Below are positions 3,748-21,150 of a stretch of DNA of 22,592 nucleotides, one piece after another. How positions within the stretch are numbered: the stretch's first letter is position 1; every line of letters starts with the position of its first letter. The translations under genes were made by a program, and so were the position numbers. The DNA is from a virus: positions 1-22,592 of IMG/VR virus record IMGVR_UViG_3300010883_021569; one strand, given 5' to 3'. A model generated the notes under the pieces. It was not told the origin of the DNA, made no database searches, and saw only the letters and a list, made by a program, of their open reading frames with translations.

Positions 3748-3964
3748 GATTTTTCTCCATGGGGTATACAGATCTTTTTTTCACGAGGGCTTCACGCCCT
3801 AGGGCATAAACGGTGTACGTTCCGCCGTGCCAGCCAACAGCGATATCATTGTCTTCAAGGAATACTCCTACTATTGGTTTTTCTGTTTTATCCAGTATGG
3901 TGCTATCAAAACCAAAAAGCTGAACGCCCTGTGGGATATGCACTAAATCTCCTTGTTGCATCAT
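3737..3964 (-). CDS. Unknown 75-residue protein coupled to GroEL
   Basis: A 75-residue protein whose ATG overlaps the groEL stop by 4 bases (ATGA) and has a strong GGAGG site 5 bases upstream. The predicted structure is short beta strands (GDLVHIPQGVQLFGF, PIVGVFLEDND, IAVGWHGGTYTVYAL), consistent with a small SH3-like barrel. A second ATG follows immediately, so the exact start could shift by one codon. It sits where GroES often accompanies GroEL, but it lacks the GroES mobile loop and the GGIxxP pattern. The GroES-like gene of this phage is at 20872-21150. Function unknown. Confidence 0.66.
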   Translation of the reverse strand: MMQQGDLVHIPQGVQLFGFDSTILDKTEKPIVGVFLEDNDIAVGWHGGTYTVYALGREALVKKRSVYPMEKNHAC

Positions 3965-5541
3965 TTTTCCTCCGTTTGTATGATTGCATATCCAGTTGTG
4001 ATAAGTGTGCCGGCACAGCTAGCTGCGTTTTGAAGCGCTGTAATGGTGACTTTAACTGGATCAATTATACCATTCTCAAACATATTTGTTAATTTATTAT
4101 TTCTAAAGTCCCAACCCATACCATCCTCGGCGTCCATCACCGTGTTAATTAAGACATCTGGGGATTCTCCCGCATTCATGGCCATCTGTCGGAACGGCGC
4201 CTTACATGCTTCTCTAATTATGGACATTCCCAAATTTTGGTCATCGTGGTTTGTTGTAATTTCAATATTTTTGCTGGCCTTTAGTAGTGCGATACCACCG
4301 CCACCCACAATTCCACTTTCTTGCGCAGACCTAACAGCTTCTAGAGCATCCTCAATTCTGTGTTTGCGTTCAATCATTTCAACTTCTGTGGCACCACCAA
4401 CAGAAATGATGGCCACTCCCGATGATAGCCGTACTACGCGACCCTGAAGGGTCGCGGCATCTTGGAGGGAACCTGTGTCTTTAATTTGTTGTTTTAGTGA
4501 TTCAATCCGTTCATCTATTTCATTGAAGTCACACCTCCCACCAACAATTGTAGTTGAATATTTGTTACTTTCAATCGCCCTTGAGGAGCCTAGATCAGAA
4601 AGTTTCACCTCTGATAGCTTTATGCCGCCCTCCCTTGTGATGAAGGTAGCGCCCACTGACAGGGCCAAGTCATCTAATAGGTGCCGGCGCTGTTCTCCAT
4701 AAAATGGAGCCTTAATAGCAGCAATTTTTAGTGTGCCGCGCATGGCGTTCATGATCATCGCAGCCAATGCTTGCCCCTCAATCTCCTCGGCTACCAAAAT
4801 GAGGGGGCGGCCTTCTCTCGCCACCATTTCTAACAGAGGCAAAATCGGCTCAACTTGTGAGATCTTATAGTCTGTAACCAAGATTAAGGGTTCTTCGTAC
4901 CCCATAATACTTCGTCGGTCGTCAGTAACAAATGCAGAGGCACAGTATCCTGATTGTATTTTGAACCCCTCCGTTACATCGATTGATGTTTGCATTGAGC
5001 GAGATTCTTCAATGGTTATGGAGCCATCCTCGCCGACCCTATCAATAGCAATAGTAACAATACTTCCAATATTGGGGTCATTATTGGCAGAAATAGTAGC
5101 AATGTGAGCGATGTCCTCTGCGCTTGTGACTGGAGTGGCCATAGACTCCAAATTTTGGCTAATCTCTTGAACTGTAGCATCAATTCCTCTCTTTAATTCA
5201 ATGGGGGAAACTCCGGAGGCAATATATTTTTGTGATTCATTAAGAATGGCCCGGGCCAGAACAGTTGCTGTGGTGGTACCGTCACCTGCTGTGTTGTTCG
5301 TTTCAATAGCAGCCTGTTTGATGATTTGAGAACCAGCATTTTCAAAGGGATCTTCAAAAGTCACAAAGTGCGCTACTGTCACGCCATCTTTAGTGATGAA
5401 GGGTACCTTTCCATATTCTTGCAAAATTACATTGCGGCCGCGGGGGCCTAGAGTCGACGCCACGTTATCTGCTAATGTATTAACTCCGTTTAGAATTTTT
5501 TGCTGCAAAGAAGTTTTGTTGTCATATGCTCTACTACTCAT
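3961..5541 (-). CDS. groEL: GroEL-type chaperonin (group I)
   Basis: 526 residues, slightly shorter than the roughly 548 of E. coli GroEL. It folds substrate proteins in an ATP-driven double ring. LGPRGRNV lies at 31-38, KDGVTV at 51-56 (Asp52) and GDGTTTATVLA at 86-96 (Asp87), numbered as in E. coli, so the ATPase site looks intact. ATEVEM and IEDALEAVRSA carry the conserved late equatorial segment with the second catalytic Asp. The apical domain retains KAPFYGEQRRHLLDDLA. The C-terminal Gly-Gly-Met tail is missing; the protein ends in QTEEK. ATG 5541 has GAGGT 6 bases upstream, and a perfect consensus promoter lies just ahead. GroEL genes are known in some large phages. A divergent GroES-like gene lies about 15 kb away. 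Confidence 0.97.
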   Translation of the reverse strand: MSSRAYDNKTSLQQKILNGVNTLADNVASTLGPRGRNVILQEYGKVPFITKDGVTVAHFVTFEDPFENAGSQIIKQAAIETNNTAGDGTTTATVLARAILNESQKYIASGVSPIELKRGIDATVQEISQNLESMATPVTSAEDIAHIATISANNDPNIGSIVTIAIDRVGEDGSITIEESRSMQTSIDVTEGFKIQSGYCASAFVTDDRRSIMGYEEPLILVTDYKISQVEPILPLLEMVAREGRPLILVAEEIEGQALAAMIMNAMRGTLKIAAIKAPFYGEQRRHLLDDLALSVGATFITREGGIKLSEVKLSDLGSSRAIESNKYSTTIVGGRCDFNEIDERIESLKQQIKDTGSLQDAATLQGRVVRLSSGVAIISVGGATEVEMIERKHRIEDALEAVRSAQESGIVGGGGIALLKASKNIEITTNHDDQNLGMSIIREACKAPFRQMAMNAGESPDVLINTVMDAEDGMGWDFRNNKLTNMFENGIIDPVKVTITALQNAASCAGTLITTGYAIIQTEEK

Positions 5542-5597: not shown

Positions 5598-6269
5598 TTA
5601 TATAATAATATCCGCAATTCCGTGTTCGATCGCCTCTTCGGCAGATAAATAGACGTTAACTTTTTCATTTAACATTTTGGTTAGTTTCTTTTTGGAAAGC
5701 TTTGTGTTTTCAACGAGAGCACTAACATAGTCGTCCTGCAGCTGTTGTATAGCCTCCAACTCATTTGTCAGATTTGGCAGTGAGCCTGCGGTGCCGCCCA
5801 TCACATTGTGAACCATAACTCTGCAGTTCTTGCCGATCTTGCGTTTGCCCTTAGTACCGGCGGCTAAAAGAAGCACGCCGGCCGACATGACTTTCCCCAA
5901 GCCGATCGTGTGTATTTCGGTGTCCTCTTTGACAACATTCATTAAGTCATAAAGCGCGAACATGTCGTCAGCAGAACCACCATAAGTACAGATATAAAAT
6001 TCAATAGATTTCTTATCTTCTTCTTTTTCCTGAATCTTATTTGCTTCGTTCATATAGATCAGTGACTGGCAGATCTCGGCGACTTTCTCTTGTTCTACGT
6101 CTGAAAAGAGCCCGATAACCCTTAAATCTAATTCCATCGGCGAGAGTGCGCCGGCGGCTAAGGCATCCGGATCCAATAAGATAATTTTATCTGTTCTATT
6201 TTCTAAATTTTCGGCTGATCCAATCTTGTTTATTTTCTCTAGAATCTTTTTTATTACTTTGTTTAACAT
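5598..6269 (-). CDS. ClpP-like serine protease 1, triad Asp replaced
   Basis: 223 residues of the ClpP/crotonase fold. YICTYGGSADD (92-102) is the oxyanion-loop glycine region. GKVMSAG holds the nucleophile Ser129, and RVMVHNVMGG holds the base His154. AGTKGKR and NVYLSAEEAIEHGIAD match ClpP blocks. ClpP normally has Asp just before xFLSAxEA; here that position is Asn205 (NVYLSA), so the triad reads Ser-His-Asn. The N-terminal 45 residues are Lys-rich and lack a typical propeptide. It could be a weak protease or a structural partner of the second ClpP-like protein (11610-12215), or a maturation protease, since some phage prohead proteases share this fold. ATG 6269 has a GGGGGA site. It follows the small membrane protein gene, downstream of the 6726-6754 promoter. 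Confidence 0.85.
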   Translation of the reverse strand: MLNKVIKKILEKINKIGSAENLENRTDKIILLDPDALAAGALSPMELDLRVIGLFSDVEQEKVAEICQSLIYMNEANKIQEKEEDKKSIEFYICTYGGSADDMFALYDLMNVVKEDTEIHTIGLGKVMSAGVLLLAAGTKGKRKIGKNCRVMVHNVMGGTAGSLPNLTNELEAIQQLQDDYVSALVENTKLSKKKLTKMLNEKVNVYLSAEEAIEHGIADIII

Positions 6270-11609: not shown

Positions 11610-12215
11610 CTATTTGAAATTAAATTTGATTTCCGTAGTTATTTTCAACTCTGGTACGTGCAATTTGTTGGCCAAGTTGTATTTCTTACATTCGTCAGCT
11701 TCTAAAAACCAATCGGCATGGCCTTTTTCGTGTACAATATCAAGAAAGTAATCTTGATGATGACCACAGTTCTTAGCCATCATAGAATAAATCTTTTGAT
11801 TAAGACGTTCTGTTTCTTCCGCAGATGCTTTGATCTCTTCTACCTTCCCGTGTTCCATTGAACTAACGTCATGAATCATTACTGTGGCGTCTGGATCCAT
11901 ATACCTGTGACCTTCAGCGCCAAAACTAAATAGTACAGCGCCACATGACATGGCTTTTCCTTGTATAATTGTGGCAACTGGAATTTTTGAATGTTTAATG
12001 TCTGAGATCATCGACATTAAACTGTATACTTGACCACCGTAGCTATCAATAATAACTGGCAGGATTGGCTGGCCGGTATTCTGAGCCTTCATGACCGCCG
12101 AGGAGAAGGCCTTTGCCGTTGCTTCATCAAATTTAGTTATCCTAATAATAATTGGCAAGTTGTCAATTAGCTTCGGTTCTTTAAGCATTGGGCTAAATGT
12201 TTTTATGACGTTCAT
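11610..12215 (-). CDS. ClpP-like serine protease 2, intact triad
   Basis: 201 residues of the ClpP family. VIIDSYGGQVYSLMSM (55-70) is the Gly-rich oxyanion region. IIQGKAMSCGAVLFSFG contains nucleophile Ser90, TVMIHDVSSM contains His115, and HADWFLEADE places Asp168 where ClpP has its catalytic Asp, so the triad is complete. An extra C-terminal tail (LKITTEIKFNFK) is unusual. No Clp ATPase is in the window, so it would need the host's ClpX or ClpA, or work alone. Phage ClpP-fold proteins can also be head maturation proteases. The ATG overlaps the HNH gene stop by 4 bases (ATGA). This tight coupling to an endonuclease gene suggests the HNH gene inserted precisely between genes. Confidence 0.9.
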   Translation of the reverse strand: MNVIKTFSPMLKEPKLIDNLPIIIRITKFDEATAKAFSSAVMKAQNTGQPILPVIIDSYGGQVYSLMSMISDIKHSKIPVATIIQGKAMSCGAVLFSFGAEGHRYMDPDATVMIHDVSSMEHGKVEEIKASAEETERLNQKIYSMMAKNCGHHQDYFLDIVHEKGHADWFLEADECKKYNLANKLHVPELKITTEIKFNFK

Positions 12216-16178: not shown

Positions 16179-17057
16179 TTACTCCTGAGTATTACATAGT
16201 ATAGTATGTTTGTGGGGCGCTGTCAAGTTATCTGAGGGTCTTTGTATAAAATTATTGCTGGCCATGTATTGCCTGTATCCGGGCCAATCTCCAGCATCCC
16301 AAAACCAATCTAGTTCGCATGTCTTTGAATTAGTTTCATCTACTTGAGAAAAGACAGTTTTTATATCAAATTTTCTGGCGCTCCACCTTTCTTGGGCGGG
16401 TAATTTTTTTGAAGGATATTTTTCATCATCCTTTAAATTATAGTATGTGTGAGTGGTCTCTTTATTAACGTGTCTTCGGCACATTTTGAAATCTTCTCCA
16501 AACATAGTAAAAGGTAAATATTTGTTGTCTTTTACTGTTTCACCCTCATGAGATAAAAAGAAATTATTCTCGTGATGCAGAATATCGGATCTCATGGGAC
16601 GTAAAGAATAAATATTAAAAGCAGAATGGGGGAAAGAAACATAATATTTCTCTGGAACTATCCATTTTGATAGCCTTGACGCGACATACCACGCAGAGTG
16701 CATTCCGTAAAGAGCAGACCAACCATAGGAATCGCGCCTTTCTCTATCTTTTGGGTGAATCGGTACGTAATAGATTGGTATTTCTTTCCTCTTATCTTTG
16801 TAAAACTTTTCCTTACGGTAGTAATATACTGGATCGTATGTCCATTCCCCGATTGTTTTCCTGATGATTGGCGCCATGTCATCATTTGCCACAATCCATA
16901 TTGTTTGGCAGCCGGCCAAAGCGCACTCAAAAACAGATTTTTGTATCATTGAGAATCCCTCATCTAAAGGCAGAAGACACCACGGGTACTTAATATCAAA
17001 GGTGTCCTCATAATTTGCAAGGGGTATTATCCCAGCCATGTGAATGTGTTTGCTCAT
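16179..17057 (-). CDS. Nucleotide-sugar nucleotidyltransferase-like protein
   Basis: 292 residues. The N-terminal half looks like a GT-A/Rossmann nucleotidyltransferase. AGIIPLA (8-14) begins the first strand, PWCLLPLDEGFSMIQKSVFECALAGCQTIWIVANDDM follows as in sugar nucleotidyltransferases, and PIYYVPIHPKDRERRDSYGWSALYGMHSA resembles their mid region. The usual GxGTRxxxxTxxxPK loop is absent, so the substrate and even activity are uncertain. The C-terminal half (after about 170) is aromatic-rich and unrecognised. I recall such proteins in uncultured marine phages. It could complete the mannose-1-phosphate route encoded at 568-1661 as a GDP-mannose former, but that is speculation. The start overlaps the upstream gene (ATGA). 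Its last codons contain the dnaE promoter. Confidence 0.65.
   Translation of the reverse strand: MSKHIHMAGIIPLANYEDTFDIKYPWCLLPLDEGFSMIQKSVFECALAGCQTIWIVANDDMAPIIRKTIGEWTYDPVYYYRKEKFYKDKRKEIPIYYVPIHPKDRERRDSYGWSALYGMHSAWYVASRLSKWIVPEKYYVSFPHSAFNIYSLRPMRSDILHHENNFFLSHEGETVKDNKYLPFTMFGEDFKMCRRHVNKETTHTYYNLKDDEKYPSKKLPAQERWSARKFDIKTVFSQVDETNSKTCELDWFWDAGDWPGYRQYMASNNFIQRPSDNLTAPHKHTILCNTQE
16198..16226 (-). promoter_or_regulatory. Near-consensus sigma70 promoter for dnaE
   Basis: On the minus strand TTGACA (16226-16221), a 17-base spacer and TATACT (16203-16198) match sigma70 with one mismatch. It lies within the last codons of the nucleotidyltransferase-like gene. Transcription would start near 16191, about 20 bases before the dnaE ATG. 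Confidence 0.8.
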
Positions 17058-17905
17058 AGATGTTTTAAATATTTTTTATATAGTTGTACTTTCTTCGGGA
17101 GTTGGGTGATCATTTCCTCCTGATTTGGTATTTCAAATGCGACGTTATGTTGGTCTACACATGATGTGGAGCTAAAGATGCTCTTACTTCTACTGATAGT
17201 TGACGTTTTAAACTTGTAGTGTTTTGGGCGGCCATTGGGACCATATCCATTAAATAGGCCCAGCATGCCTCTGCCTTCCATCTCACTAACTACCTTAAAA
17301 CGTGCCATTGTTTCTGAGAGATCAAATTCTTCAAGACGATTCTCCTCAATAAACGAGACTGCGCATGCGTCTTTTACTTTGGTATTCCCACAGATTCTAT
17401 CAGACGGGTAGAACCATATTTGTTTAACAAACTTGTCTTCTGTCTCAATCAGATCAATCTCGTGCTTTCCGCCTCTGTTGAAAGCTATCCAGTCGTAGCA
17501 AACATACTTTTTGGTTTTTGGTTTTTGCGTAAAATCGTGGAGCTTATCAAAATAAACATCATAAATTTTAGAGTATTCATTAAAACAGCGAAAAGAATTC
17601 ACATGGCGTCTAATGTTGGTGCAGAGGCCAGCAAGAGGGGCTTTGCCATCTAAGGACAGCAAGAACAGCATCCTTTCCCAAAGTAGTTCTTTGGGGATAC
17701 CCACCAATTTTTGACCTTCAAAAGTCATCAGGCTGTTTTGTTGATTTGGGATTTTTAGTTCAGCAAGTTCTATTTTAGGATGTAAATAGTCAAACCTAAA
17801 CGGGCGCTCAGGCTCAGCAAAGAAGATTGGATAACCATGGTTAAACGCGAATAATACTGCATCTAGACTGCTACCCAAAACGACATTGGGGTATTCAGTT
17901 ATCAA
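17054..17905 (-). CDS. Unknown protein, possible Rossmann-like N-terminus
   Basis: 283 residues, soluble and mixed alpha/beta. The N-terminus PNVVLGSSLDAVLFAFNHGYPIFF resembles a strand-glycine-helix nucleotide-binding start, with VVLGSS for the glycine loop. No catalytic motif follows that I can name. Middle and C-terminal regions are aromatic and charged, ending in a Lys-rich helix. The start is TTG 17905, overlapping the stop of the upstream secreted-protein gene by 4 bases (TTGA); AAGAAG just ahead is a weak ribosome binding site, and the first internal ATG is about 60 codons in. It is coupled to the nucleotidyltransferase-like gene downstream, so the two may work together, perhaps on a nucleotide-linked substrate. 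This is inference. Confidence 0.68.
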   Translation of the reverse strand: MITEYPNVVLGSSLDAVLFAFNHGYPIFFAEPERPFRFDYLHPKIELAELKIPNQQNSLMTFEGQKLVGIPKELLWERMLFLLSLDGKAPLAGLCTNIRRHVNSFRCFNEYSKIYDVYFDKLHDFTQKPKTKKYVCYDWIAFNRGGKHEIDLIETEDKFVKQIWFYPSDRICGNTKVKDACAVSFIEENRLEEFDLSETMARFKVVSEMEGRGMLGLFNGYGPNGRPKHYKFKTSTISRSKSIFSSTSCVDQHNVAFEIPNQEEMITQLPKKVQLYKKYLKHL

Positions 17906-19092
17906 TCTTCTTTTCTTCTAAAGCCTGCCACTAAAGCAGCCATAAAAATAACATACAAGCTACCACGACTGGTGGTTGCGCAGCTGCAGCCGGCAGAGGA
18001 CTTTGTTCCAGCCTCTGTAGTATTGTCGGTGAACTCAAATGGTGCGGATGTATCTGTGTTTTCTTCATGTTCAAAGCCTGAGTCCTGATACTCGGCATCA
18101 CCTGTATCCTCTTCTGTAACGACGGGTTCTTCTTCCCCTTCGTCTGCGGGGATAAAGAACGGCTGTGAAATAACCAAGTCTGATAGTGTCACGCCAAGTT
18201 CATGATGGAAGGGGTCATACCAGCCAGTATCAAAGTTTCCCATAAAGTTTAACTCATCTATCCTAAAGGGTATACCTTCCTCAACCTGAACACTCAAGAA
18301 GTATTCATGGTAGGCTGACTGCGTTTCTCTCGCGCCTAGATTCAGGTACATGTCCCACGCCATCAAATCTGCTCTTCCATCCACAAATACATCCCACTCA
18401 TAAAGTGTGACTTCGTATTGTGTTTGAACTGAATATTCTGATGAGTGGTAGCCCTTGATCTGTACATTGCCTTCCGCTTCCACTTCCCCATCTTCGTTAA
18501 TGGGATACTCGCCATGAGCCATGACGGCGCCCTCTGAATCAGATCCGATTCCGTATGCATTCTGAAACGTTACTTGTCCATAGGCATCAATGCCGTAGGA
18601 CTCAAACGGGACGGACCAGTCCCAACGGAAGGCGCCTTGTTCGCGTTCAATGTCGGTCATTGCCTCTACCGATAAAACCGGATGCTCACCCCAATCACTC
18701 CACTCATCTGCCCATAGTTTGCACTGGGCGCCATCGGCCCATCCCCATGGGGCATAATTACAGTTGTGGCCCGGCGTAACTCTCGTTTTGATGACAGCCA
18801 CATAAAAATCCGTGGCTCGGTCAATCGAGGATTGAAACCAGAAAAACTCCACGATGGCATCAATGGTGTTATCGTATTGATCTGAGTTGCCCACATAAAG
18901 GGTGTTTCCCTCAAAAAAAGCGTACGGAAATCGATCCTCACTGCCGGCGATGTCAGTAGCGGTTTCAAACGATACGTCCCAGTCTCCTTCTAAAATAGAT
19001 GCGCCTGAATAAGACGTCTCACTGTCGCTAAAGTCGCTAGCGTGTGCGGGGGCGGCCAAAGCCAGAGCAGTCAAAAGGGATAAAAACTTCAT
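17902..19092 (-). CDS. Secreted protein with MYXO-CTERM-like sorting tail
   Basis: 396 residues. A clear Sec signal peptide (MKFLSLLTALALAAPAHAS) has an AHA cleavage site after Ala18. The mature part (about 20-310) is beta-rich, acidic and aromatic, with no family that I know. A Glu/Asp/Thr-rich linker (about 312-365) follows. The end has GCSC at 368-371, a Ser/Arg-containing spacer, a short hydrophobic span (379-391) and a terminal RRK cluster. This is the pattern of MYXO-CTERM signals (Cys pair, membrane span, Arg cluster), which direct surface display in Myxococcota and relatives. The start overlaps the upstream lipoprotein gene (ATGA) with GAGGTG ahead, and both lie behind the 19387 promoter. 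A surface role during infection is inference. Confidence 0.82.
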   Translation of the reverse strand: MKFLSLLTALALAAPAHASDFSDSETSYSGASILEGDWDVSFETATDIAGSEDRFPYAFFEGNTLYVGNSDQYDNTIDAIVEFFWFQSSIDRATDFYVAVIKTRVTPGHNCNYAPWGWADGAQCKLWADEWSDWGEHPVLSVEAMTDIEREQGAFRWDWSVPFESYGIDAYGQVTFQNAYGIGSDSEGAVMAHGEYPINEDGEVEAEGNVQIKGYHSSEYSVQTQYEVTLYEWDVFVDGRADLMAWDMYLNLGARETQSAYHEYFLSVQVEEGIPFRIDELNFMGNFDTGWYDPFHHELGVTLSDLVISQPFFIPADEGEEEPVVTEEDTGDAEYQDSGFEHEENTDTSAPFEFTDNTTEAGTKSSAGCSCATTSRGSLYVIFMAALVAGFRRKED

Positions 19093-19361
19093 TTTTCACC
19101 TCTCGCATCAATTTGTGCCCTGATGTGGCTCTTTAATTCCTCACAACGATGGTCAGAAGGACAACCAGTCACGGCACGAAAAATCATTTCAGAATTGTGA
19201 TTCATCTTTTTTAAATCCTCCAACATTTTTTCTGACGTCAAGATCATGCGATCTAGGCGCTCAATTGTCTCATCAAGTGTAACCGGTTGCGGGGCGGAAT
19301 CCCGTAACTCTCCTGCGGGGGAGCAAGAAAGCATAGCTAATGCTAATAAAGTTGTAAACAT
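19089..19361 (-). CDS. Small secreted protein, putative lipoprotein
   Basis: 90 residues. The N-terminus MFTTLLALAMLSCSPAG is a short hydrophobic signal with Cys13 as a possible lipidation site. The preceding MLS is a poor match to the LAG-type lipobox, and there is no basic residue at the very start, so lipidation is likely but not certain. The mature part is about 77 residues: a Pro-rich linker, a helical coiled-coil-like region (TIERLDRMILTSEKMLEDLKKM) and a Cys pair (GCPSDHRC) that could form a disulfide. Size and layout resemble outer-membrane spanin subunits, but no inner-membrane partner is seen. ATG 19361 has TAGGAG at 5 bases. It is the first gene after the 19387 promoter and is coupled to the MYXO-CTERM-like gene. 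Confidence 0.72.
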   Translation of the reverse strand: MFTTLLALAMLSCSPAGELRDSAPQPVTLDETIERLDRMILTSEKMLEDLKKMNHNSEMIFRAVTGCPSDHRCEELKSHIRAQIDARGEK

Positions 19362-19386
19362 GTTTCTCCTAGTTTATGTTTGATAT

Positions 19387-19415: not shown

Positions 19416-19949
19416 CTATCTTTTACTCAATCCATAAGAATTGTGACCGCCTAACCACCAATTTGGATGCATAATATGATTTTTCCGATTGTAATGTTGC
19501 CAGCCAAGAGCATGGCCTATTTCGTGTTCAAGCACACGTTCTTTTTTGCCCGATCTCGGAAGGATATATATTTTTGCTTTAATTATCTCATTTGTAAACT
19601 TGCTTGTGTAAATCCTTGTGGCGGCCATTTTGTCATCAACTATTCCTTGTGTGGGTAATACAATTGCTATCTCATTATCTTTCGGATTCATGCAGTGTGA
19701 AAAACGATCCAGATAAATTTCGCCAAATTCATACCCGAGGCGTTCCCAATAATTTACTGCTCTACGTACTCTTTCTAACGATATTTCAGTTTCTTGACAA
19801 AGTCTAATTTTTGGTGAGTTTTCCCACTTATATTTCCGCAAAGGTTTCTGGGAAAATTTTGAAATTTTATAGAATTTCGAGTGGCTATGGTAATCATAAA
19901 CGACATTATCGGTCTGAAACGCCATCAAAAGTAGCAGAAAGAACATCAT
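19416..19949 (-). CDS. Secreted metzincin-type zinc metalloprotease
   Basis: 177 residues. A short hydrophobic N-terminus (MMFFLLLLMAFQ) acts as a signal peptide or anchor. The catalytic signature HEIGHALGWQH lies at 142-152: His142, His146 and His152 bind zinc, and Glu143 is the base. HIMHP with Met160 supplies the Met-turn of metzincins. The domain is small, like the matrixin core, with two Cys (51 and 86). No propeptide cysteine switch of the PRCGxPD type is seen. It would cut proteins in the periplasm or outside the cell. It sits directly after the endolysin (3-base gap) and before the lipoprotein operon, suggesting a lysis or surface role; a virion role is also possible. ATG 19949 is followed by a second ATG. 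Confidence 0.85.
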   Translation of the reverse strand: MMFFLLLLMAFQTDNVVYDYHSHSKFYKISKFSQKPLRKYKWENSPKIRLCQETEISLERVRRAVNYWERLGYEFGEIYLDRFSHCMNPKDNEIAIVLPTQGIVDDKMAATRIYTSKFTNEIIKAKIYILPRSGKKERVLEHEIGHALGWQHYNRKNHIMHPNWWLGGHNSYGLSKR

Positions 19950-19952
19950 TTC

Positions 19953-20858
19953 TCATTCTTCTTCCTTCACTTCATCAAGCAACGTCTTGATATCTAAGCC
20001 AGCACAATCAATCTTTCTTTTGCTAACGTGATAGTGGCTAACAAATCCCCTAAACTTACCATAAGCCACTTGTTGTTCGTAGTAGTTTGATGTGTTACCA
20101 AACTGATTAAGGGGTGTTTCATACGGGATATCCGCAGATTCGTGCACGGCTTTCCATAGTGCTCTTAAAGCTTCCAGTTGTTTGGGATAAAATCCTGTAA
20201 ATGGGCCGAGTTCATGGCCGTTGATATAAGCCTTTTTGATGATTGGCCTCTCGCCGAAACCATTTTTTATATACCAGTCTTGATATTTTGGATAATAAGC
20301 ATTTGAGATTTCAACACCAATTGAAGGTCTGTTTGACCTTTCTGATCCGGCATGCCAGCCGGCGTGCTGTATGTCCATAGTTTGATAGATGGTTCCATCG
20401 TTGTCAATAAGAAAATGGACAGATATACCTCTTTTATCTAAAACCCTTTGGCAAGACTTAGAACTGAGACATACATCCCAATGGTTAACAAAATATCTAA
20501 TTTTTCGCTTGGGGCGGCCTGTGTAATCATAATACGTACCACGTTTAGCTTTTAAACCATTTGGCTCGGACCACAACACGACTTTGTCCCAATCAATATG
20601 GGTAAAATTTCCATTGAAAACAATATAATTTGAATACTGGCATTTATCAGGTGTGTGAACATCAATGTTTTCTTGCCTATTCGTCCAGAGGCGCCTGAAT
20701 GTGGCTGGACCGCAAAGACCATCTGCCACCAACCTCAGCTTGCGCTGAAATATTTTTATCGCACGAGTAAGCTTATCATCAAAAAACTTTTCCCCAAACC
20801 ATGAAGGTTCCCATCCCAATTTGGCCGCTGAGGCCTCATTGTAAAAATTCTTGTTCAT
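19953..20858 (-). CDS. N-acetylmuramoyl-L-alanine amidase endolysin
   Basis: 301 residues from ATG 20858, which has an AGGA site; a TTG at 20912 would overlap the GroES-like gene and is less likely. A peptidoglycan-binding domain (about 10-58, LTRAIKIFQRKLRLVADGLCGPATFRRLW) precedes an amidase_2 domain. The latter has FVNHWDV with His126, ISVHFLIDNDGTIYQ, QHAGWHAG, IGVEISNAYYP, and late SHYHVSKRKIDCAGLD whose His and Cys fit the remaining zinc ligands of T7 lysozyme-type enzymes. It cleaves the amide bond between muramic acid and the peptide, causing lysis. No N-terminal secretion signal is seen, so a holin is expected elsewhere. It is followed at 3 bases by the metzincin protease gene. Confidence 0.92.
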   Translation of the reverse strand: MNKNFYNEASAAKLGWEPSWFGEKFFDDKLTRAIKIFQRKLRLVADGLCGPATFRRLWTNRQENIDVHTPDKCQYSNYIVFNGNFTHIDWDKVVLWSEPNGLKAKRGTYYDYTGRPKRKIRYFVNHWDVCLSSKSCQRVLDKRGISVHFLIDNDGTIYQTMDIQHAGWHAGSERSNRPSIGVEISNAYYPKYQDWYIKNGFGERPIIKKAYINGHELGPFTGFYPKQLEALRALWKAVHESADIPYETPLNQFGNTSNYYEQQVAYGKFRGFVSHYHVSKRKIDCAGLDIKTLLDEVKEEE

Positions 20859-20871
20859 CTGTTTACTTTTC

Positions 20872-21150
20872 CTATTTTTGTATAATGCCGACGATATAAT
20901 TATCTTGCACAACAGAATAAGTCAAGTTATTCACAGTTATTTCTTCAATCATAGAGTTATCAACAATAATAGAATCAGCTTGATTTAAGTCAAATCTCAC
21001 ATCTTCTGCCCAAGAAATCACCGCGGTTTGTATATATTTCTCTTCTATAGCCTTGTAGTCGTCTGGCAATAGGATGCCCATAGGCGTCTCTGTGTCTGAT
21101 TTTTGTACCTTGTTCTCAACAAGAATATATCTGTTAACAGGTTTAAACAT
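20872..21150 (-). CDS. GroES-like co-chaperonin
   Basis: 92 residues. MFKPVNRYILVENK starts as GroES does (xxPLxDRVLVKxx). TPMGILLPDD matches the end of the mobile loop and GGIxIPD. AEDVRFDLNQADSIIVDNSMIEEITVNN fits the GDxVxFxxxxGxEVxxxGxxY region, and YSVVQDNYIVGIIQK matches the final xxIMxESDIxAxI strand. The roof loop is divergent, as in phage co-chaperonins such as T4 gp31. It probably caps the phage GroEL or host GroEL. Its gene lies about 15 kb from groEL, in a different transcription unit. ATG 21150 has AAAGGAG at 7 bases and overlaps the upstream gene by 8 bases. Confidence 0.8.
   Translation of the reverse strand: MFKPVNRYILVENKVQKSDTETPMGILLPDDYKAIEEKYIQTAVISWAEDVRFDLNQADSIIVDNSMIEEITVNNLTYSVVQDNYIVGIIQK

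Follow-up and report, generated by a model that had tools for sequence, protein, structure and literature searches.

A 396-amino-acid (aa) protein encoded in a 22,592-base virus record from IMG/VR (IMGVR_UViG_3300010883_021569; "the window" below, meaning the whole stretch of DNA that was analyzed) is, judging by its sequence, built as a MYXO-CTERM protein. A phage family bearing this Myxococcota surface-address tag suggests that a virus uses the myxosortase sorting pathway. We consider it likely that the gene encodes a surface protein captured from the host, which has kept the host sorting tag, would be displayed by way of host Sec export, lipidation, and myxosortase, and would serve as an effector at the cell surface. 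The open reading frame (ORF), here called the MYXO-CTERM-type gene, lies at 17902..19092, with its ATG at 19092 and its stop codon at 17902-17904. It is on the minus strand, which appears to hold nearly all genes of the window and carries every window feature located by coordinates below as start..end.

Architecture and sorting tail of the protein

The protein consists, in order, of a signal peptide, a beta-rich conserved domain of ~290 aa, an acidic linker, and a MYXO-CTERM-like tail. The Sec-type signal peptide, MKFLSLLTALALAAPAHAS (residues 1-19, 19036..19092), was read directly from the sequence and ends at AHA-S/D; among homologs its form is retained and its sequence is not. The conserved domain (residues 20-313, 18154..19035) has a predicted leukocidin/alpha-hemolysin-like beta fold. 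It is followed by a linker recognized by its composition, which is rich in Asp, Thr, and Gly (residues 314-367, 17992..18153); residues 314-368 hold 18 D/E and a single K/R. The tail, AGCSCATTSRGSLYVIFMAALVAGFRRKED (residues 368-396, 17905..17991), comprises a GC motif, a short hydrophobic span seen in the sequence (residues 378-391, 17920..17961), and the basic cluster RRK (residues 392-394, 17911..17919). Cys369 (17986..17988) is invariant in the family and is the predicted site of lipidation ahead of myxosortase cleavage.

Scans of IMG/VR for homologs returned 54 and 61 loci, on contigs of up to 293 kb, and the protein had no match among INPHARED phages. Across 39 aligned phage homologs, mean majority-residue conservation was 0.84 for domain residues 20-310 and 0.51 for the linker and tail (residues 311-396). 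Within the latter region, only Pro311, at the end of the domain, and Cys369 are invariant, and Cys369 is also present in every aligned cellular homolog. The arginines R392 and R393 are kept in 92% and 90% of the 39 homologs, respectively, and the cysteine and the first basic residue past the hydrophobic span are 19 to 25 residues apart throughout the family. The original prediction had described a signal peptide, an acidic linker, and a tail made up of GCSC, a hydrophobic span, and RRK. All of these elements are indeed present, but GCSC was rejected as a conserved motif, since its first cysteine is found in 39/39 homologs and its second (Cys371) in only 6/39.

Several comparisons support assigning the window tail to the MYXO-CTERM type on the strength of its sequence. 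A local tail hidden Markov model (HMM) was built from 28 distinct C termini around TIGR03901 matches in the Myxococcota genomes that carry two of the cellular homologs and was run on 799 phage C termini, 39 of them from family members. The window tail came second of the 799, with 27.2 bits (E 1.2e-7), and the best-placed unrelated phage protein ranked below 29 of the 39 family members. The full window protein also matches the C terminus of NF045638, a myxosortase-dependent phytase (E 0.0016), and L027, the relative carried by a 293-kb phage contig, exceeds the TIGR03901 cut-off with 22.4 bits. A C terminus with a cysteine, a hydrophobic stretch, and a basic end was found in 1 of 385 and 1 of 375 ORFs on two large phage contigs and in 1 of 32 ORFs in the window, the sole such ORF in each set being the MYXO-CTERM-type gene.

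Other scores speak against this assignment. In NCBIfam, the window tail reaches 15.2 bits with TIGR03382, just under the cut-off of 15.85, and 10.8 bits with TIGR03901, under the cut-off of 20. A whole-protein TIGR03901 match at E <= 1 was obtained for just 4 of the 39 relatives. With the local HMM, ten family tails (L001, L008, L012, L016, L018, L019, L020, L026, L031, and L041) score at background level, and the tag has therefore diverged in parts of the family. The earlier expectation of a match to TIGR03901 and related models was borne out for L027 and not for the window copy, while the broader claim of a MYXO-CTERM-like tail held. The window protein has the architectural features of a MYXO-CTERM protein and misses the curated score, and its processing is a prediction.

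The known MYXO-CTERM/myxosortase system (MrtX; TIGR03901 and TIGR03382; PMC11980579) shares with this family the signal peptide, the invariant cysteine, the short hydrophobic span, and the basic end, and cellular homologs of the window protein's very domain bear the tag. It differs in that the window family is encoded by jumbo phages without the protease, mostly lacks the second cysteine of the GCGC-like signature, and often has a basic doublet only. A phage-encoded substrate was not the topic of any title or abstract found in the MYXO-CTERM/myxosortase literature. Should the phage copy be processed, a Gram-negative C-terminal sorting pathway would be open to viruses.

Phage carriers, cellular relatives, and predicted host

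The gene had been predicted to be phage encoded, and the related contigs agree. Each of the 11 large related contigs checked encodes both a T4-like major head protein and the large subunit of terminase. Among them is a 194-kb relative that is syntenic with the window at protein identities of about 75 to 95%, and the 293-kb contig additionally encodes a portal protein. The related contigs are thus tailed phages, several of them jumbo-sized.

When 84,980 species of bacteria and archaea were scanned with two short patterns only, six cellular loci were recovered. Five are on Myxococcota contigs, and in the two of these listed in detail, ordinary chromosomal-type genes flank the homolog. The sixth, L055, is a contig of 3,700 bases binned in a Gemmatimonadota metagenome-assembled genome. 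The tree places it among the phages; a stray phage contig that was mis-binned, and that could suggest a false host, is the most likely explanation. The search for the domain in Myxococcota genomes that had been proposed at the outset found homologs in 16 of 379. Full-length cellular homologs have a C terminus in which a cysteine precedes a hydrophobic span and an Arg-rich end, and their linker has the same acidic style as that of the window protein. In two distant Myxococcota homologs (L229, 5088-7043, and L231, 4506-6434), the domain is followed by Cys-rich, DNDCDG-type repeats before a MYXO-CTERM-like tail.

The four homolog-bearing Myxococcota genomes tested contain 24 to 72 TIGR03901 matches each, and an MrtX-like protease (NF040593, E 1e-28 to 1e-38) was found in 10 of 10 tested homolog-bearing Myxococcota genomes. 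Neither an MrtX-like protease (0 of 10 phage contigs tested) nor a CPBP protease of any kind (13 phage contigs) was found on the phage side, and the idea that the phage supplies its own sortase was rejected on this basis.

We infer that Myxococcota are the host of these phages, because the cellular relatives found for the domain come only from Myxococcota, have this same type of tail, and belong to genomes that encode a myxosortase-like protease. The host originally proposed is thereby upheld as a prediction from sequence, one that applies to uncultured jumbo phages of a widespread group. Three points count against it. Because the cellular scan was based on two short patterns, relatives outside Myxococcota may be missed; the MrtX-like matches score below the strict NF040593 cut-off; and the matching of CRISPR spacers, which had been suggested as a check, gave no convincing spacer-like match when the 379 Myxococcota genomes were searched at the DNA level, for spacers or related proviruses, with 9.9 kb of the window. 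What this search did yield was short conserved stretches, mostly in DnaE, ribonucleotide reductase (RNR), and the MYXO-CTERM-type gene itself.

Origin, proposed function, and alternatives

In a tree of the domain, 45 phage and 12 cellular sequences are split by one branch with support of 100/99, as would be expected from a single old transfer. Because the root is not fixed by the tree, the direction of transfer is not either; capture from the host is favored because the tag is of the host type. The phages probably acquired the gene long ago, from that of a Myxococcota surface protein.

Among phages, the MYXO-CTERM-type gene behaves as exchangeable cargo. A block of ~1.3 kb (18113..19377), spanning most of this gene and an upstream lipoprotein-like gene, has ~90% DNA identity to L008, while the L008 backbone is merely ~67 to 72% identical to the window and L013 is the nearest match to the window backbone (about 80% DNA identity). 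In L211 and L214, the same neighbors surround a site without the gene, which was not found elsewhere on these fragmentary contigs. The 280- and 293-kb phages carry it in different surroundings.

The mechanism that we propose begins with an ancestor of these jumbo phages that would have captured a Myxococcota surface protein and retained its C-terminal sorting tag. During infection, Sec would export the 396-aa protein, and the tail would hold it in the inner membrane. Cys369 would then be lipidated and the tail cut by the host myxosortase, and the cleaved, lipid-anchored protein would be transferred to the outer surface, where the leukocidin-like domain may act on a membrane or a partner. Every processing step of the phage protein is here predicted from its sequence. 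For TraA of Myxococcus xanthus, cysteine-dependent cleavage and surface display have been shown and lipidation has been predicted (PMC11980579). The nearest conceptual parallel is SasX, an LPXTG protein encoded by an SPbeta-like prophage of staphylococci (PMC5088179), which is likewise phage borne and bears a signal for the host's surface-sorting enzyme. SasX differs in being a prophage protein of the Gram-positive LPXTG/sortase system, unrelated to the window protein in sequence and chemistry.

The role is most likely that of a surface effector altering the encounters of the infected cell with other cells, prey, or phages. A superinfection block or a change in predation or adhesion had been suggested at the outset as possible roles. 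In our ranking, a surface effector of host origin comes ahead of superinfection exclusion, and help in lysis is third. The effector reading is favored because the ectodomain is strongly conserved and cellular homologs exist.

The fold of the domain was modeled. With AlphaFold2, the full protein gave a poor model (predicted local distance difference test [pLDDT] score of 56), with weak fold matches; the domain modeled alone with its cellular relatives reached a pLDDT of 69 and a predicted template modeling (TM) score of 0.71. In a Foldseek search of the PDB with the domain model, ranks 1 to 16 were all members of the leukocidin/alpha-hemolysin superfamily (probability 0.99 to 1.00, best E 1.1e-5), and the next match had a probability of 0.14. 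A fold search of BFVD gave no match under E 0.001. It is also important to point out what tells against a leukocidin fold: most of residues 140-212 are unresolved in the domain model, the middle being below pLDDT 50; the TM-scores of the leukocidin matches are ~0.4; the domain had no match in Pfam or PHROGs, so that the fold is without Pfam support; and a PDB sequence-profile search to E 10 returned chance matches only, with no leukocidin chain. The unresolved stretch lies mid-chain, where we take the pre-stem of leukocidin-type proteins to be. Because the TM-scores are ~0.4 and the Pfam and PDB profile searches lend no support, the domain may have a leukocidin/alpha-hemolysin-like fold as a lead rather than an assignment. 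With the beta-barrel pore formers of this superfamily, the window domain would share its predicted fold, as modeled in the top 16 PDB matches, but it has no detectable sequence similarity to them, and it is predicted to be surface anchored whereas they are freely secreted.

A more specific version of the surface effector reading is that jumbo phages of Myxococcota display, through myxosortase and to the benefit of the phage, a host-derived, tethered, membrane-acting protein of leukocidin fold. We hold this only tentatively and put it at somewhat less than an even chance. If true, there would be a surface-anchored, pore-former-like family common to Myxococcota and their phages. Literature searches on pore-forming toxins in myxobacterial predation and on viruses of marine Myxococcota found nothing. 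The homologs do provide a conserved surface-domain family in Myxococcota, with a possible leukocidin-like fold and a function that is directly testable.

Alternatively, the protein might serve in superinfection exclusion, masking or altering a phage receptor or blocking the entry of rival DNA, with the domain acting as a binding module only. This is favored because the cargo is exchanged together with the lipoprotein-like gene, moving as a block between divergent phages, and the gene is accessory, being missing at the locus in two relatives. Phage envelope lipoproteins are known to exclude rivals (PMC11893012). Those of the mEp phages are, like the window protein, phage envelope proteins encoded by accessory genes, and a lipid anchor is predicted for the window protein; they have an N-terminal lipobox, however, in contrast to its C-terminal tag and large domain with cellular homologs. 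We regard exclusion as rather unlikely, as Myxococcota genomes hold such homologs, so that the domain functions without a phage, and an ectodomain conservation of 0.84 is unlike that of typical arms-race surface proteins.

It is improbable, in our estimation, that the protein is a lysis helper, acting with the neighboring endolysin-like amidase to disrupt the outer membrane when infection ends. In favor of this, the amidase gene lies a short distance upstream in the near clade and 5 to 7 kb upstream in another, and membranes are a conceivable target of a leukocidin-like fold. Two relatives, however, retain the amidase without the MYXO-CTERM-type gene at the locus, the 280- and 293-kb phages have the gene in other surroundings, and Myxococcota have their own homologs.

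We find it very improbable that the tail acts as an ordinary C-terminal anchor, keeping the protein in the inner membrane without sorting. A signal peptide with a single C-terminal hydrophobic span and a basic end is a common topology, and the window copy is under the curated cut-offs. Such an anchor requires no cysteine, yet Cys369 persists in the cellular homologs as well as in all 39 from phages, amid a drifting linker and tail; moreover, the majority of family tails match real MYXO-CTERM tails, and one relative scores above the cut-off. Finally, that the window comes from a host chromosome, or was wrongly assigned to a virus, so that nothing is phage encoded, is scarcely credible and was rejected in practice: no capsid or terminase gene was recognized within the 22,592 bases themselves, but the syntenic 194-kb contig bears genes for both terminase and a T4-like head protein, and homologs occur on contigs of 72 to 293 kb with the same structural genes.

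Gene neighborhood and further observations

The window and many related contigs have a common gene order: RNR, a zinc-finger-like gene, GroES, amidase, the MYXO-CTERM-type gene, orf283, and orf292, continuing with DnaE, ClpP, a DnaJ-like gene, DAM, thioredoxin, and IMPDH. The start of the MYXO-CTERM-type gene is overlapped by the small lipoprotein-like gene (19089..19361), which encodes a lipobox-like LAMLSC. Relatives of this small gene were found only in L006, L008, and L022, and it travels together with the MYXO-CTERM-type gene in some phages. Upstream is an optional neighbor, a secreted, matrixin-like M10 metallopeptidase (19416..19949; PF00413, E 1.2e-5), which was not found in L012, L013, or L214. 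A related metallopeptidase gene lies less than 4 kb from the homolog in the otherwise different phages L027 and L031, and at the cellular locus L057, the homolog is preceded by a secreted protein with a zinc-protease-like motif. Next comes a conserved neighbor, an N-acetylmuramoyl-L-alanine amidase with a peptidoglycan-binding domain (19953..20912; PF01510, E 9.3e-17; PF01471, E 2e-5).

The window also encodes GroEL (3961-5541), a GroES-like co-chaperonin (20872-21150), and two ClpP-like proteases (5598-6269 and 11610-12215), in addition to DnaE, IMPDH, a DAM-type methylase, and ribonucleotide reductase. The product of orf292 (16179-17057), which is conserved beside the MYXO-CTERM-type gene and DnaE, looks nucleotidyltransferase-like by eye and had no Pfam or PHROG match. 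In the 293-kb phage (G002), two T4-like major head protein genes stand side by side at 176341-180096, and the region 20000-30000 holds a multicopy small-protein family, with many short ORFs beginning MKxGDLV, that is present in G001 too.
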